A DNA stretch of 64,000 nucleotides, from NCBI RefSeq assembly GCF_013391805.1, contig NZ_CP058364.1, positions 1,612,501 to 1,676,500 on the forward strand, in the 5' to 3' direction. The notes under the pieces are model-generated. The model was given only the letters and a program-made list of their open reading frames with translations, ran no database searches and was not told where the DNA came from. The translations under genes and the position numbers were made by a program. Shown here one piece after another: positions 16,598 to 22,363 of this stretch (position 1 is the stretch's first letter; the number at the start of each line of letters is the position of its first letter). The stretch is from Galbibacter sp. BG1 (GTDB lineage Bacteria > Bacteroidota > Bacteroidia > Flavobacteriales > Flavobacteriaceae).

Positions 16598-18820
16598 GTG
16601 AGAATTAAATTTTTATTCATAGTACTTTTTACAGCAGCTTTCTCTTTTGCGCAAGAAGATAAAAGTCAAGACCCCAAAGTAGGTTTGGTTTTAAGTGGTG
16701 GTGGAGCCAAAGGGTTGGCACACATTGGTGCGCTCAAAGCGATAGAAGAATCTGGGGTGCGCATAGATTATATTGGTGGAACCAGTATGGGAGCCATTAT
16801 TGGAGCATTGTACGCCGCTGGATATTCTGCAAAGCAATTGGATTCTATCTTTAGGGAAACCAATTTCGACGTTTTGTTACAGGATAAAATTCCGCGTTCT
16901 GCCATGTCTTTCTACGAAAAAAGCAGTTACGAAAAGTACGCGCTAACTTTACCGTTCGATAAATTTAAAGTTTCATTTCCTACGTCGCTATCCAAGGGCC
17001 AAAACCTCTATAACCAGCTTTCCCGTTTGTTGTTTAATGTGAATGGGGTAGAAAATTTTAACGATCTTCCCATTCCTTTTTTCTGTATGGCTACCGATGT
17101 GGAAACGGGAGAACAAGTAATTTTAGATAAAGGTTATCTTCCAAGGGCGCTTTCTGCGAGTGCCGCCATTCCTTCCTTTTTTGAACCGGTTCCCTATGAA
17201 GATAAACTTTTGGTAGATGGAGGAGTACAAAATAATTATCCTGTAGATGAGGTTCTAGACTTAGGGGCCGATATAATCATTGGTGTGGATGTTCAAGACC
17301 CTTTACTGAAGCGGGATAAACTAAAATCGGCTACCGACGTGCTCGTACAGATAAATTATTACAATACGGTAAACGATATGGAAGAGAAGCTGAAAAAGAC
17401 AGATGTTTATATCAAACCGAATATTGAGCCCTTTAATATTTTATCATTTGGGGAAGGGGAGAAAATTATTGAAAGCGGTTATGAAGCGGGAGAATTAAAG
17501 ATAAGTTCTTTGGATAGTGTTGCGAAGCTTCAAAAAAAGCCACCGATTAAACAATATCCAGGGGAAGCTGTAGATACCTTTTTAATAGACCGTCTTTCTT
17601 TTGAAGGTAACGACAAGTTCACAAGAGCATACCTCAAAGGGAAATTGCGCTATACAACTGAAGAATATATCAATTTTGATAAGATCGATCAAGGGATGAG
17701 CAATCTCTCGGCAACCAATAACTTTAATAGTGTACGCTATGAGATTCGCCCAAATAAAGAGGGGTATAAACTGTCGGTTCCTATAATAGAAAGGAATACT
17801 GATATGTTTCTAAAACTAGGGGTTCATTACGACGGCTTGTATAAAACCGCAGGACTGGTAAATATTACCAAGAAACATTTGTTCTTTGACGACGATGTGG
17901 TGTATTTCGATTTTATAGTTGGAGATTTTATCAGGTATAATTTTGAATATTATTTGGACAAAGGTTTTTATTGGAGCTTCGGTTTCAAATCCCGTTATAA
18001 TTCTTTTGCTAAGGATGTGGAATTCGATTTTGTGCAGGGAACGGTTCAGGAAGAATTGCCGGATGTAAATAAACTTGATATCGAAATATCAGATTTTACC
18101 AATCAGCTATATGCGCAAACGGTTTGGAAAGAAGAGTTTACTTTTGGGCTCGGTTTAGAGCATAAATATTTGAAGATTGAAACAGAAACCATTACAGATA
18201 GCGACGGAAAAGAGGTGGTATTGGAAAACGATAACTATTTTAGTACTTACGGGTATTTAAAGTTTGATACGCTGGATGACAAATACTTTCCTTCCAAGGG
18301 AATGTTTTTCGACGGCGATTTCCATTTATATCTATTTTCCAGTGGTTTTGAAGAAAAATCAGATAATTTTTCAATCGCTAAGGCCAAAATGGGCTTTGCA
18401 GTACCTATTGCCAAAAACTTTTCGATGGATTTCTTTACGGAAGGCGGATTTAAAATTGAAAATACCAATGTACAGGCTTTCGATTTTGTGCTTGGCGGTT
18501 TTGGAAACGATTTTATAAATAATATTACTCCTTTTTTAGGGTACGATTATTTAAGCTTTGGTGGGGATAGCTTTGTAAAGGCAACATTTAATGCCGATTG
18601 GGAATTTGTTAAACAGAACCATTTTAATATATCTGCCAACATTGCCAATGCGGGAGATGATATTTTCGAAAAAGGGGAGTGGTTTACTTTGCCCGATTAT
18701 ACAGGATATTCTGTAGGCTATGGCTACGAATCTATAATCGGTCCGCTTCAAGCAAAATTTTCTTATTCCCCAGAAACAGGCGATAATTGGCTGTATGTAA
18801 GTGTTGGGTTTTGGTTTTAA
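16598..18820 (+). CDS. patatin-like phospholipase fused to POTRA/outer-membrane beta-barrel
   Basis: 740 residues beginning with GTG and a signal peptide (MRIKFLFIVLFTAAFSFAQ). The patatin domain has the oxyanion loop SGGGAKGLAHIGAL, the nucleophile Ser63 in GTSMG and the catalytic Asp near residue 207 in LLVDGGVQNN. After residue 320 comes a POTRA-like part (FLIDRLSFEGNDKFTRAYLKGKL) and then a long beta-rich region ending in VSVGFWF, as expected of an Omp85-type barrel. Such proteins are secreted or outer-membrane lipases of the PlpD type. It is in an operon behind uvrC, which is probably a chance pairing. Confidence 0.92.
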   Translation: MRIKFLFIVLFTAAFSFAQEDKSQDPKVGLVLSGGGAKGLAHIGALKAIEESGVRIDYIGGTSMGAIIGALYAAGYSAKQLDSIFRETNFDVLLQDKIPRSAMSFYEKSSYEKYALTLPFDKFKVSFPTSLSKGQNLYNQLSRLLFNVNGVENFNDLPIPFFCMATDVETGEQVILDKGYLPRALSASAAIPSFFEPVPYEDKLLVDGGVQNNYPVDEVLDLGADIIIGVDVQDPLLKRDKLKSATDVLVQINYYNTVNDMEEKLKKTDVYIKPNIEPFNILSFGEGEKIIESGYEAGELKISSLDSVAKLQKKPPIKQYPGEAVDTFLIDRLSFEGNDKFTRAYLKGKLRYTTEEYINFDKIDQGMSNLSATNNFNSVRYEIRPNKEGYKLSVPIIERNTDMFLKLGVHYDGLYKTAGLVNITKKHLFFDDDVVYFDFIVGDFIRYNFEYYLDKGFYWSFGFKSRYNSFAKDVEFDFVQGTVQEELPDVNKLDIEISDFTNQLYAQTVWKEEFTFGLGLEHKYLKIETETITDSDGKEVVLENDNYFSTYGYLKFDTLDDKYFPSKGMFFDGDFHLYLFSSGFEEKSDNFSIAKAKMGFAVPIAKNFSMDFFTEGGFKIENTNVQAFDFVLGGFGNDFINNITPFLGYDYLSFGGDSFVKATFNADWEFVKQNHFNISANIANAGDDIFEKGEWFTLPDYTGYSVGYGYESIIGPLQAKFSYSPETGDNWLYVSVGFWF

Positions 18821-20110: not shown

Positions 20111-21250
20111 ATGTCACAAGATACCACATCATTAAAACTTGAAAAGGAAGTAGCGGCCGCAGAAGATTTTTTGCCATTACTGGGAACAGATTATGTAGAG
20201 CTTTATGTGGGAAACGCAAAGCAAGCGGCACATTATTATCAGGCAGCTTGGGGCTTTCAACCATTGGCCTACGCTGGTTTGGAAACAGGTCGTAAAGACA
20301 GTGTTTCGTATGTTCTTCAGCAAGATAAAATAAGAATTGTGCTTACTTCACCCTTAAAACAAGGAGGGGAAATTAATAGGCATATAGAAAAACATGGAGA
20401 TGGAGTAAAAGTGGTGGCGCTTTGGGTAGATGACGCAACTAAAAGCTACCAAGAAACTACCAAAAGGGGTGCGCAAAGCTATATGGAGCCTAAAACAATA
20501 GAAGACGATCTCGGGAAAGTAGTTCTTTCTGGAATTCATACCTATGGGGAAACGGTGCACGTTTTTGTAGAACGCTCTAATTATAATGGGGCATTTATGC
20601 CAGGTTTTAAGGCTTGGAATCCAACGTATAAACCGGCGCCGGTTGGTTTAAAATACATAGACCACATGGTAGGGAATGTAGGTTGGAATGAAATGAGAAA
20701 ATGGTGCGAATTTTACGCCAAGGTAATGGGGTTTGCCCAATTGGTATCTTTTGATGATAAGGATATTTCTACGGAATATACTGCGTTAATGAGCAAGGTG
20801 ATGAGTAATGGGAATGGAAGAATAAAGTTCCCAATAAACGAACCTGCTGAAGGAAAGAAAAAATCGCAGATAGAAGAATATATAGAGTTTTATAATGGAG
20901 CAGGCGTACAACACATTGCGTTAGCTACCGATAATATTATAGAAACCGTAAAGCAGTTAAAAAACAGGGGTGTAGAATTTCTTCACGTGCCAGATACCTA
21001 TTACGATACAGTTTTAGATAGGGTTGGGGAGATCGATGAATCTTTGGAACCTTTAAAAGAACTAGGGATTCTTATCGATAGGGACGACGAAGGGTACCTA
21101 TTGCAACTATTTACAAAGCCCATTTTAGATAGGCCTACCATGTTTATCGAGATTATTCAAAGAAAAGGAGCCAAATCTTTTGGAAAAGGAAACTTTAAGG
21201 CGCTGTTTGAGGCTATAGAGCGAGAGCAGGAAATGAGAGGTACGTTATAA
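20111..21250 (+). CDS. hppD: 4-hydroxyphenylpyruvate dioxygenase
   Basis: 379 residues. It converts 4-hydroxyphenylpyruvate to homogentisate, the substrate of the neighbouring hmgA product. Two vicinal-oxygen-chelate domains are visible. The iron ligands are His in YIDHMVGNV (about residue 185), His in GVQHIALATDNI and Glu near the C-terminus in MFIEIIQRKGAKSFGKGNFKALFEAIE, which is also the C-terminal gating helix. The pair forms a tyrosine degradation unit. Confidence 0.96.
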   Translation: MSQDTTSLKLEKEVAAAEDFLPLLGTDYVELYVGNAKQAAHYYQAAWGFQPLAYAGLETGRKDSVSYVLQQDKIRIVLTSPLKQGGEINRHIEKHGDGVKVVALWVDDATKSYQETTKRGAQSYMEPKTIEDDLGKVVLSGIHTYGETVHVFVERSNYNGAFMPGFKAWNPTYKPAPVGLKYIDHMVGNVGWNEMRKWCEFYAKVMGFAQLVSFDDKDISTEYTALMSKVMSNGNGRIKFPINEPAEGKKKSQIEEYIEFYNGAGVQHIALATDNIIETVKQLKNRGVEFLHVPDTYYDTVLDRVGEIDESLEPLKELGILIDRDDEGYLLQLFTKPILDRPTMFIEIIQRKGAKSFGKGNFKALFEAIEREQEMRGTL

Positions 21251-21336
21251 AAAAGGCGTTTTTTTGTTAAATTATCAATTACAGCTAAAACATTTTATCA
21301 TCTAAGTGTTAAAAAAGTTAAACTTATTTATTATGC

Positions 21337-21366
21337 TTGCATAACATCTGTATTGTATTAACTTTG
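21337..21366 (+). promoter_or_regulatory. consensus Bacteroidota promoter for a small RNA
   Basis: TTG at 21337-21339 and TAACTTTG at 21359-21366 are separated by exactly 19 bases, an ideal match to the Bacteroidota promoter TTG-N19-TAnnTTTG. Transcription should start near 21371-21374. No coding frame follows; a strong terminator is reached about 100 bases later. Confidence 0.75.
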
Positions 21367-21370
21367 CGCT

Positions 21371-21471
21371 CGCAATAGGGGTGGTGCCCTATGCAGACTT
21401 TAAGTAAAGTTTTCATAATTTAAAGTTTTGGTTGGTTAATGAAAAAAGCTCGACTTCGGTCGAGCTTTTTG
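21371..21471 (+). ncRNA. candidate stand-alone small RNA, about 100 nt
   Basis: The interval starts just after an ideal promoter and ends with a UUCG-capped intrinsic terminator. A hairpin with a bulge forms from GCAATAGGG (21372-21380) and CCCTATGC (21387-21394) around a GTGGTG loop. A second short hairpin ACTTTA/TAAAGT follows (21397-21410). No start codon with a useful frame is present. The following gene has about 100 further bases before its start, so this is not its leader. I do not recognise the family; it could be a new sRNA or a member of a known flavobacterial RNA motif. Confidence 0.6.
21444..21470 (+). terminator. UUCG-capped terminator of the small RNA
   Basis: AAAAGCTCGAC (21444-21454), loop TTCG (21455-21458) and GTCGAGCTTTTT (21459-21470) form an eleven-base perfect stem with a T-tract. 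The extra-stable UUCG tetraloop makes this one of the strongest terminators in the window. Confidence 0.9.
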
Positions 21472-21574
21472 CTTTTGGTCATGTTTGGTACTTTTGGAAT
21501 AATAATTGTTAATTGTAATTACAAAGAATCGTAATGTAATTGAATTTATTATTTTTACATCAATAACTTGAAGT

Positions 21575-22363
21575 ATGAAGAAGATTATCTTAGCCCTGAC
21601 CATATTTTGGTTATCAGCATTTGTTAACCAAAGTGAAGAAATTAAATCCGATTCCTTTCAAGCTGGAGAGTGGTTTAAATTCCGTATTCACTATGGTATT
21701 TTTAACGCCAGTTATGCCACCCTCGAAGTAAAAAACGATTATGTACAGGGGCGAGAAGTCTATCATGTTATAGGAAGAGGACAAACCACTGGGTTGGCAA
21801 GCCTGTTTTTTAAGGTAGACGACAACTACGAGAGTTACTTTGATAAAGAAACCGGTCAGCCTTATAAATTTATCAGGCAGATAGATGAAGGTGGCCATAC
21901 CAAAGATCTAGAAATCAACTTCGACTACGACGCTAAGAAAGCCATCTTAGAAGATCACAAACACGATACCGAGCAAAGTTTTGAAATCAATAAAGGCGTT
22001 CAAGACCTAATTTCTGCATTTTACTATATGAGAAATCGTGTAGACAGGCACCAATTGTCTAAAGGGCAAGAATTTGTTTCAGACATTCTTTTTGATGATG
22101 ATGGCCTCTTTAAGTTTAAGCTTAAATATTTAGGAAAGGAAACCTTAAATACTAAGTTTGGTAAGATTAAATGTTTGAAATTTAGACCGTACGTGCAATC
22201 GGGACGTATTTTCGAAGAGGAGGAAAGTTTAACGCTTTGGGTTTCTGATGATGATAATAAAATGCCTATCCGAATTAAGGCAGATATCTTGGTGGGATCG
22301 ATAAAAGCAGATTTGGAAGCTTTTAAAGGGCTTAAAAATCAGTTTAAAATAATAATGGATTGA
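21575..22363 (+). CDS. DUF3108 periplasmic protein
   Basis: 262 residues. A signal peptide (MKKIILALTIFWLSAFVNQSEE) precedes a beta-rich domain with FKFRIHYGIFNASYATLEV-like text, GQTTGLASLFFKVDDNYESYFDKETGQPYKFIRQIDEGG and a C-terminal LWVSDDDNKMPIRIKADILVGSIKADLEAF, the hallmark of DUF3108. Its function is unknown; the fold resembles outer-membrane lipid-handling beta-barrel-like proteins. Its stop TGA overlaps the ATG of tryptophan 2,3-dioxygenase (TGATG), so translation is coupled. Confidence 0.85.
   Translation: MKKIILALTIFWLSAFVNQSEEIKSDSFQAGEWFKFRIHYGIFNASYATLEVKNDYVQGREVYHVIGRGQTTGLASLFFKVDDNYESYFDKETGQPYKFIRQIDEGGHTKDLEINFDYDAKKAILEDHKHDTEQSFEINKGVQDLISAFYYMRNRVDRHQLSKGQEFVSDILFDDDGLFKFKLKYLGKETLNTKFGKIKCLKFRPYVQSGRIFEEEESLTLWVSDDDNKMPIRIKADILVGSIKADLEAFKGLKNQFKIIMD

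Follow-up and report, generated by a model that had tools for sequence, protein, structure and literature searches.

A small RNA of about 100 nucleotides encoded between hppD and a DUF3108 gene in Galbibacter sp. BG1 is almost certainly real and widely conserved, and it carries a core that mirrors the leader and start codon of an mRNA. We propose, with a probability of roughly 0.58, that it is a trans-acting base-pairing RNA that masks the translation starts of mRNAs for exported proteins. It most likely represents a new family of base-pairing regulators, one member of which may already have been detected by RNA-seq. Its transcription in Galbibacter, its pairing in cells and the direction of regulation we infer from the computational analyses described here. 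The first-pass annotation of this DNA regarded the element as an orphan. That status has to be abandoned, as the family is spread through the Flavobacteriaceae, where it commonly lies just upstream of DUF3108.

The window, a 64,000-nucleotide stretch of contig NZ_CP058364.1, places the element where it had been reported, between an open reading frame at 20111–21250 that matches glyoxalase/dioxygenase families of Pfam and falls just short of the cut-off for the HPPD N-terminal model, and one at 21575–22363 that Pfam identifies as DUF3108. Direct reading of the forward strand locates a Bacteroidota −33/−7 promoter at 21337–21366, consisting of TTG (21337–21339), 19 intervening bases and TAACTTTG (21359–21366), exactly as originally placed. 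Across loci, a TAnnTTTG box is found 20–28 nt 5′ of the hairpin 1 loop in 102 of 118. An intrinsic terminator, AAAAAGCTCGAC-TTCG-GTCGAGCTTTTT, spans 21443–21470 on the same strand; the UUCG loop stands as first described, but the fold pairs 12 bp in the stem and not the 11 bp previously given. The letters of this stem vary among genera while the pairing, judged by eye, is retained. On the basis of promoter, terminator, fold and conservation, the predicted transcript runs from 21370 to 21470 on the forward strand, its 5′ end being set from the −7 box.

Folding of 108 nt gives a minimum free energy of −35.1 kcal/mol (z = −3.55 against dinucleotide shuffles) and returns the two hairpins that had been predicted 5′ of the terminator. 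Hairpin 1 (21372–21394, forward strand) has the loop GUGGUG. Hairpin 2 (21396–21428, forward strand; ACUUUAA...UUAAAGU) is a feature of the RNA folds that presents CAU, the complement of a start codon, in its loop at 21414–21416. The conserved, unpaired linker GGUUGGUUA, a proposed second seed, lies at 21430–21438 on the forward strand. These features support the earlier view of a stand-alone small RNA that has a promoter and terminator to itself and is part of neither adjacent gene.

The first-pass annotation could assign the RNA to no known family, and Rfam does the same. When the whole window was searched with the Rfam 15 covariance models, only a tRNA, located elsewhere, reached the gathering score; at E values up to 10, the best score in the window was 20.2 bits, where gathering requires 40. 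Flavo-1, a flavobacterial structured RNA, had been named as a family to compare, and it is absent from the window's 12 Rfam matches at E ≤ 10. The two are alike in being flavobacterial structured RNAs, and no Rfam model matches the site of our RNA at gathering score. Fourteen loci with divergent homologs likewise gave no match at gathering score.

The element is kept in all seven Galbibacter genomes, our own included, at 88–100% identity, and alignment across the genus displays a frozen core, together with hairpin stems whose two sides vary in concert. Because of this retention in 7/7 genomes, together with the compensatory changes in hairpin 1 described below, we regard the element as more than a chance arrangement. 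A covariance model built from the seven Galbibacter sequences (R1) matched 131 of 397 family genomes and 84 of 237 genera at E ≤ 1e-3. A second model (R2), built from 15 members including two Flavobacterium sequences, matched, at E ≤ 0.01, 384 of the 398 genomes from Flavobacterium, and 331 of the 333 with completeness of 90% or more and contamination of 5% or less. In both cases the training sequences match by construction, because the models were built from them. Genome G132 was assigned to the genus Flavobacterium from its 89% identity to a PDB GldM chain; the runner-up among 269 genomes had 56%. Of 30 Flavobacterium loci, one (L301) had no usable match, and 19 were taken into the neighbour analysis. 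A pattern scan over named genomes gave at least 120 matches, and the 80 loci listed come mostly from Maribacter, Arenibacter, Allomuricauda, Zobellia, Cellulophaga, Capnocytophaga and their kin. The locus sets contain a few duplicates, where one genome appears twice (L006 and L124, for example).

Twenty further loci, 18 of them weak matches, extend the family to divergent members; the GUGGU hairpin loop is present in 15 of the 20 and the linker also in 15. Some of these weak matches may be false, because L281, L286, L290, L291 and L295 lack GUGGU. Twelve of the 20 entered the hairpin covariation and minus-strand analyses, and 10 entered the core count. Divergent homologs at L278, L279, L280, L282–L285, L287 and L292 lie at other loci and are accompanied by a sigma54-like promoter, TGGCAC-N5-TTG. 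Most genomes have a single match and a few have two or three. Two or three copies occur in G029, G184, G230 and G357, about 300 bases apart in the last three, and L283 carries three copies in tandem.

The strongest structural evidence comes from hairpin 1. The loop reads GUGGU[UGA] in 130 of the 130 loci used for the covariation analysis, a set that omits eight fetched divergent loci, five of which lack GUGGU. The first-pass annotation had suggested aligning relatives to look for compensatory changes, and these are present: seven pair levels are kept among 78 distinct hairpins. Counting from the innermost level, pairing is found in 73, 78, 73, 75, 71, 70 and 61 of the 78, compared with means of 61.5, 74.1, 65.9, 68, 54.0, 33.1 and 35.7 when the 3′ letters are shuffled. 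Level 6 is particularly varied, being U-A (26), A-U (24), C-G (8), G-U (5), G-C (5) or U-G (2). Sliding one arm against the other, a control that, unlike shuffling, preserves the relatedness of the sequences, reduces the counts at levels 5–7 to 33, 28 and 18 for a shift of +1, to 35, 27 and 20 for +2, and to 65, 35 and 35 for −1. Hairpin 1 therefore covaries strongly, as RNA. With its near-constant GUGGU loop, it may serve as a structural or protein-binding element.

The core, at 21401–21440 on the forward strand, is complementary to an mRNA leader together with its start codon, as judged by BLAST, a recount of aligned positions, gene context and duplex energy. Strong R1 members from genera other than Flavobacterium number 34, none of them chosen by the core-demanding pattern scan; 30 contain the core sequence, UUUUCAUAAUUUAAAGUUU(U)GGUUGGUUA, which may also be written UUUUCAU[AC]AUUUAAAGUUU(U)GGUUGGUUA, and all contain the linker GGUUGGUUA. 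In Flavobacterium the exact core is found in 0 of 29 members, while all 29 have both UUCAUAAUUUA and GGUU[AG]GUUA. The 10 divergent members counted include none with the exact core, one with UUCAUAAUUUA and five with the linker; over all 20 divergent loci, UUCAUAAUUUA is kept in four.

The complement of the core, TTAACCAACCAAAACTTTAAATTATGAAAACTTTACTT, reads as a leader with a start codon. Outside the small RNA itself, the Galbibacter sp. BG1 genome contains one strong match to the core (BLAST E = 9.0e-10), with 38 of 41 aligned positions complementary, the start codon among them. This match is the leader and start of a 626-residue protein with CBM96, fn3, polysaccharide lyase and Por secretion-tail (T9SS) domains; the leader reads AACCAACCAAAACUUUAAAAAG-AUG. 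The lyase gene is the last in an operon that domain matches identify as SusC-SusD-GH88-polysaccharide lyase (L327, 6195–14007). The core–lyase duplex has a predicted energy of −45.8 kcal/mol (−50.9 in a longer frame), and among 40 shuffled cores tried on 338 genes the lowest value is −35.1. The significance of this site is post hoc, because it was picked by a whole-genome search, and the site is present in two of the seven Galbibacter genomes only, the other being G003. Of 23 near matches inspected in the genus, nine were judged by eye to lie at gene starts and the others were not. The starts so identified, which are weaker candidates, include those of GH29 fucosidase, rhamnosidase, SusC-like and lipoprotein genes.

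A more general preference emerges from comparison with shuffled cores. The own-genome set drew 338 gene starts from the window plus 21 more stretches of the genome; the lyase operon in it is not a random draw, because it was added for its site. The lyase is the best partner of the core in this set (−45.8), and six starts score lower than −22, where shuffled cores give 1.4 ± 1.5. Exported-like genes, called by a crude hydrophobicity rule, pair better than the remaining genes by 1.54 kcal/mol in Galbibacter (shuffled cores, +0.45 ± 0.43; 0/40 reach this value). The corresponding advantage is −0.89 in G037 (shuffled, +0.09 ± 0.42; 0/40) and −0.94 in the Flavobacterium genome G612 (shuffled, +0.24 ± 0.43; 0/40). 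Mean start-region energies are −12.59 in Galbibacter, −13.20 in G037 and −12.48 in G612, compared with −11.71 ± 0.53, −12.12 ± 0.62 and −11.10 ± 0.54, respectively, for shuffled cores. In Galbibacter gene-internal stretches, the real core is no lower than shuffled ones (−12.70 versus −12.94). The absolute energy of the real core is about the same at starts (−12.59) as within genes (−12.70), and the preference for starts is thus one relative to shuffled cores.

When partners are ranked, exported genes take 12, 12 and 8 of the top 20 places in the three genera, numbers reached by 0, 0 and 4 of the 40 shuffled cores. Of the top 10 places they hold 7 (or 8), 5 and 4, which 1, 9 and 7 of 40 shuffles reach, a weak result. 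Measured against shuffled cores by mean energy, the core prefers the starts of exported genes over other gene starts in all three genera. The linker taken alone gives a significant preference in Galbibacter only (0/40), the figures for G037 and G612 being 8/40 and 3/40; part of the signal is therefore the matching of UUUUCAU to AUGAAAA, a start that is common in signal-peptide genes.

Near-perfect targets are rare. A 24-nt mirror of the leader, sought with up to three mismatches, matched nothing but the small RNA in all 12 variant-B genomes, and a 19-mer of the leader occurred 98 times over seven genomes (seven of these being the small RNA), against 84 for the reversed control. Leaders of the form AACCAAYYAAA-N-ATGAA are in no clear excess in genomes that bear the RNA (2.58 with the self match removed, versus 2.15; p = 0.11), in a two-group comparison that omitted 35 weak R1 genomes (E about 1e-7 to 1e-3). 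Over 397 gene starts from the named loci and the window, AACCAACC was found in none and AACCAA in 16 leaders.

We envisage the following mechanism. A sigmaA-type promoter would drive a transcript of about 100 nt that ends at the intrinsic terminator. Its first seed, UUUUCAU in the loop of hairpin 2, would pair with AUGAAAA at start codons, and its second, the linker GGUUGGUUA, with UAACCAACC in 5′ leaders. Such pairing would cover both the start codon and the leader, which in Bacteroidota works without a Shine-Dalgarno site, and translation of exported proteins, among them enzymes of polysaccharide utilisation loci (PULs), lipoproteins and T9SS cargo, would be blocked, or, for some targets, perhaps adjusted. 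In this way the RNA may tune the set of enzymes that is secreted.

The neighbouring genes offer two other explanations. Among 127 loci with neighbours, DUF3108 lies on the right in 104, on the same strand and mostly less than 300 nt 3′ of the terminator, HppD on the left in 75, and both flank the RNA in 71; these figures lean towards close relatives because 54 of the 127 loci came from the core-demanding pattern and a few are duplicates. The constancy of DUF3108 would suit an attenuator or riboswitch-like leader of that gene, with a shared promoter and a terminator that decides read-through. What makes this improbable is the DNA between terminator and reading frame. In the window, a sigma54-like promoter, TTGGAATAATAATTGT, of the form TGG[AC]A-N5-8-TTG lies past the terminator at 21494–21509 on the forward strand. 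The same form recurs between terminator and downstream frame in 88 of 103 loci, where shuffled versions of the final 110 bases of the spacers give 0.96 on average and four at most, and a TAnnTTTG box is found in 34 of the 103. Most likely, then, DUF3108 has a promoter of its own and the RNA is a separate unit, given a sigma54-like site in 88 of 103 spacers. In divergent lineages, moreover, the RNA adjoins other genes, and at nine of the 20 such loci a sigma54-like promoter stands upstream of the RNA itself. The promoters found between terminator and reading frame thus disfavour the attenuator. It is very improbable that the element is nothing but the terminator-bearing 3′ end of the hppD operon: the frequency of hppD as left neighbour would fit, but the RNA persists beside other left neighbours and is itself preceded by the promoter box in 102 of 118 loci. 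Where HppD is absent, the left neighbour is often patatin-like (a 24-member cluster, named by eye from one member), and a patatin-like relative is also found in the window, farther upstream at 16598–18820. A regular-expression search for ribosomal proteins over the locus set returned nothing.

Two further readings concern the core. Read on the minus strand, AACCAACCAAAACUUUAAAUUAUG could be an mRNA leader with a reading frame for a small protein behind it; the strand does read as a good leader followed by ATGAAA, a pattern M-K-...-G-[NH]-H-P appears in several lineages, and one frame is common to 37 of 63 distinct linkers. Yet the remaining linkers fall into frame classes of 14 and 12, 29 of the 63 meet a stop within 16 codons, seven pairs differ by a single-base insertion or deletion, including within Galbibacter, and hairpin 1 covaries as RNA. 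We give a minus-strand small protein almost no credence, the frame classes, stops and indels all disfavouring it. A protein-binding scaffold or decoy, in which the GUGGU-loop hairpin and the GGUUGGUU linker would bind an RNA-binding protein and complementarity to mRNA would be secondary, deserves more attention, though we still consider it unlikely. At the divergent loci, GUGGU is kept where the mirror of the start codon has decayed (15/20 versus 4/20 with UUCAUAAUUUA), and the accessible part of one report on the Bacteroides RNAs FopS and GibS has them binding the protein RbpB (PMC11697453). Against it, the core of most close members mirrors a start region over a greater length than a protein site needs, and the shuffled-core tests favour the starts of exported genes. 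Pairing with the starts of exported-protein mRNAs is the reading we prefer, and it is the one considered in what follows.

Compared by description, the closest work-alikes of our RNA would be these same FopS and GibS of Bacteroides thetaiotaomicron, which, in the sections of the source available to us, pair with mRNAs for SusC and glycoside hydrolases near the start codon, repressing their translation (PMC11697453). The resemblance extends to the target, since our core is complementary to the start of a glycan-enzyme mRNA (the lyase, 38/41). On the description available, FopS belongs to a 14-copy family (12–15 copies per genome), whereas our RNA is mostly single copy, so the multicopy character is not shared. 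FopS is also shorter (about 65–70 nt, with a 5′ seed), whereas our RNA, at about 100 nt, has an internal seed and places the GUGGU-loop hairpin first.

Within the flavobacteria, the relevant comparison is with Flavobacterium psychrophilum, for which the accessible text of an RNA-seq study names Rfp1–89, of which Rfp11, Rfp13, Rfp15 and Rfp18 are structured and conserved in other species (PMC9723704). The same text predicts that Rfp18 targets secreted metalloproteases and an adhesin, in one case at an intergenic site before the start; it places the pairing region of Rfp18 in the third stem-loop, and it reports that deletion of rfp18 lowers fpp1 and THC0290_0300 mRNA in stationary phase, a positive effect (PMC9723704). 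As far as these descriptions go, Rfp18 and our RNA are alike in being independent, structured and conserved in the genus Flavobacterium (384 of 398 genomes for the latter). In the Flavobacterium member L276, folding puts part of the linker seed in the third stem-loop, GUUAGUUAAUAGC, as described for Rfp18; in L297 this stem-loop comes fourth. The decrease of two protease mRNAs on deletion of rfp18, as reported there, contrasts with the repression that we would mostly expect of our RNA.

Position gives a further indication. The F. psychrophilum hppD gene is THC0290_0232 in the part of PMC5682007 that lists it, and interpolation from the positions in Table 2 of PMC9723704, as far as that table was available, puts it at about 281 kb, between Rfp11 and Rfp36. 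Rfp15 suits this position somewhat better than do Rfp13 and Rfp18. A binomial estimate by hand, which assumes that Rfp numbers follow genome order, as judged from the listed positions of Rfp11 and Rfp36, gives approximately 0.10 : 0.23 : 0.07 for Rfp13 : Rfp15 : Rfp18. Because the hppD position and the third stem-loop agree, on the portions of these sources available, the ortholog is probably one of these three RNAs, compared by position and description. The F. psychrophilum PSY1 primer matched none of the 35 genomes tried. For F. columnare, the available text of an RNA-seq study lists candidate small RNAs without Rfam matches (PMC5395568).

In both marine and soil habitats, flavobacteria are major degraders of polysaccharides. 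Little was found in the open-access literature on post-transcriptional control of their secreted enzymes, and a search of that literature by neighbouring genes or family found no description of the present element among the top-ranked papers. A nearly universal RNA with a start-mirroring seed would provide an entry point to this control, and the analysis yields covariance models and a predicted class of targets; it may also join Rfp18, an RNA with a measured protease phenotype, to a family-wide system. Bacteroidia ribosomes do not recognise Shine-Dalgarno sequences, as stated in the accessible part of PMC9976891, and our results suggest that a shared antisense RNA can read start regions free of such sequences. 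A bolder extension, which we consider conceivable though doubtful, is that one ancient RNA per genome acts as a general antisense of the Shine-Dalgarno-free start region, a brake or selector for exported proteins across the Flavobacteriaceae, while its promoter input has been swapped among lineages (GTTAAA repeats with sigmaA, a MarR beta-oxidation operator, sigma54). If this were true, one RNA would couple different signals to secretion in different lineages.

Two elements upstream of the promoter bear on such input. The direct repeat TGTTAAA-AAA-GTTAAA at 21307–21322 on the forward strand is a possible activator site, on the strength of its spacing across loci. In the window alone it is unremarkable, having one exact match, and 42 of 100 shuffles match at up to one mismatch. 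In the 102 boxed loci of 118, GTTAAA lies 41–43 nt upstream of the −7 box at 101 sites and again at 32–33 nt at 43 sites; repeats at so nearly fixed a distance resemble a conserved activator site. The palindrome TTATGC-TT-GCATAA, at 21331–21344 on the forward strand, covers the −33 element and is a candidate MarR-type operator on account of its recurrence. It, or its left part, occurs as TATGCTTGCATA at the matching offset in 13 of 90 upstream regions, including those of six of the seven Galbibacter genomes (L007 contributes a match on its second strand, E = 3.7e-4, to this count alone). In the Galbibacter sp. BG1 genome, 12 other places fit the palindrome with no more than one mismatch, and strand matches number 17 against five for the reversed control. 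Four of the 12 places were judged to lie in promoters: one belongs to a MarR gene, one to a thioesterase gene, one to a KAS III-like gene and one to etfB. Several of the remaining places are intragenic. The palindrome-bearing MarR gene adjoins a 3-hydroxyacyl-CoA dehydrogenase-like gene. This pattern suggests that a regulator of fatty-acid degradation may control the small RNA in the Galbibacter lineage. Written as [CT]TATGC-N2-GCATAA, the palindrome recurs at L040, L042, L043 and L051, in the apparent promoters of the four genes named above.
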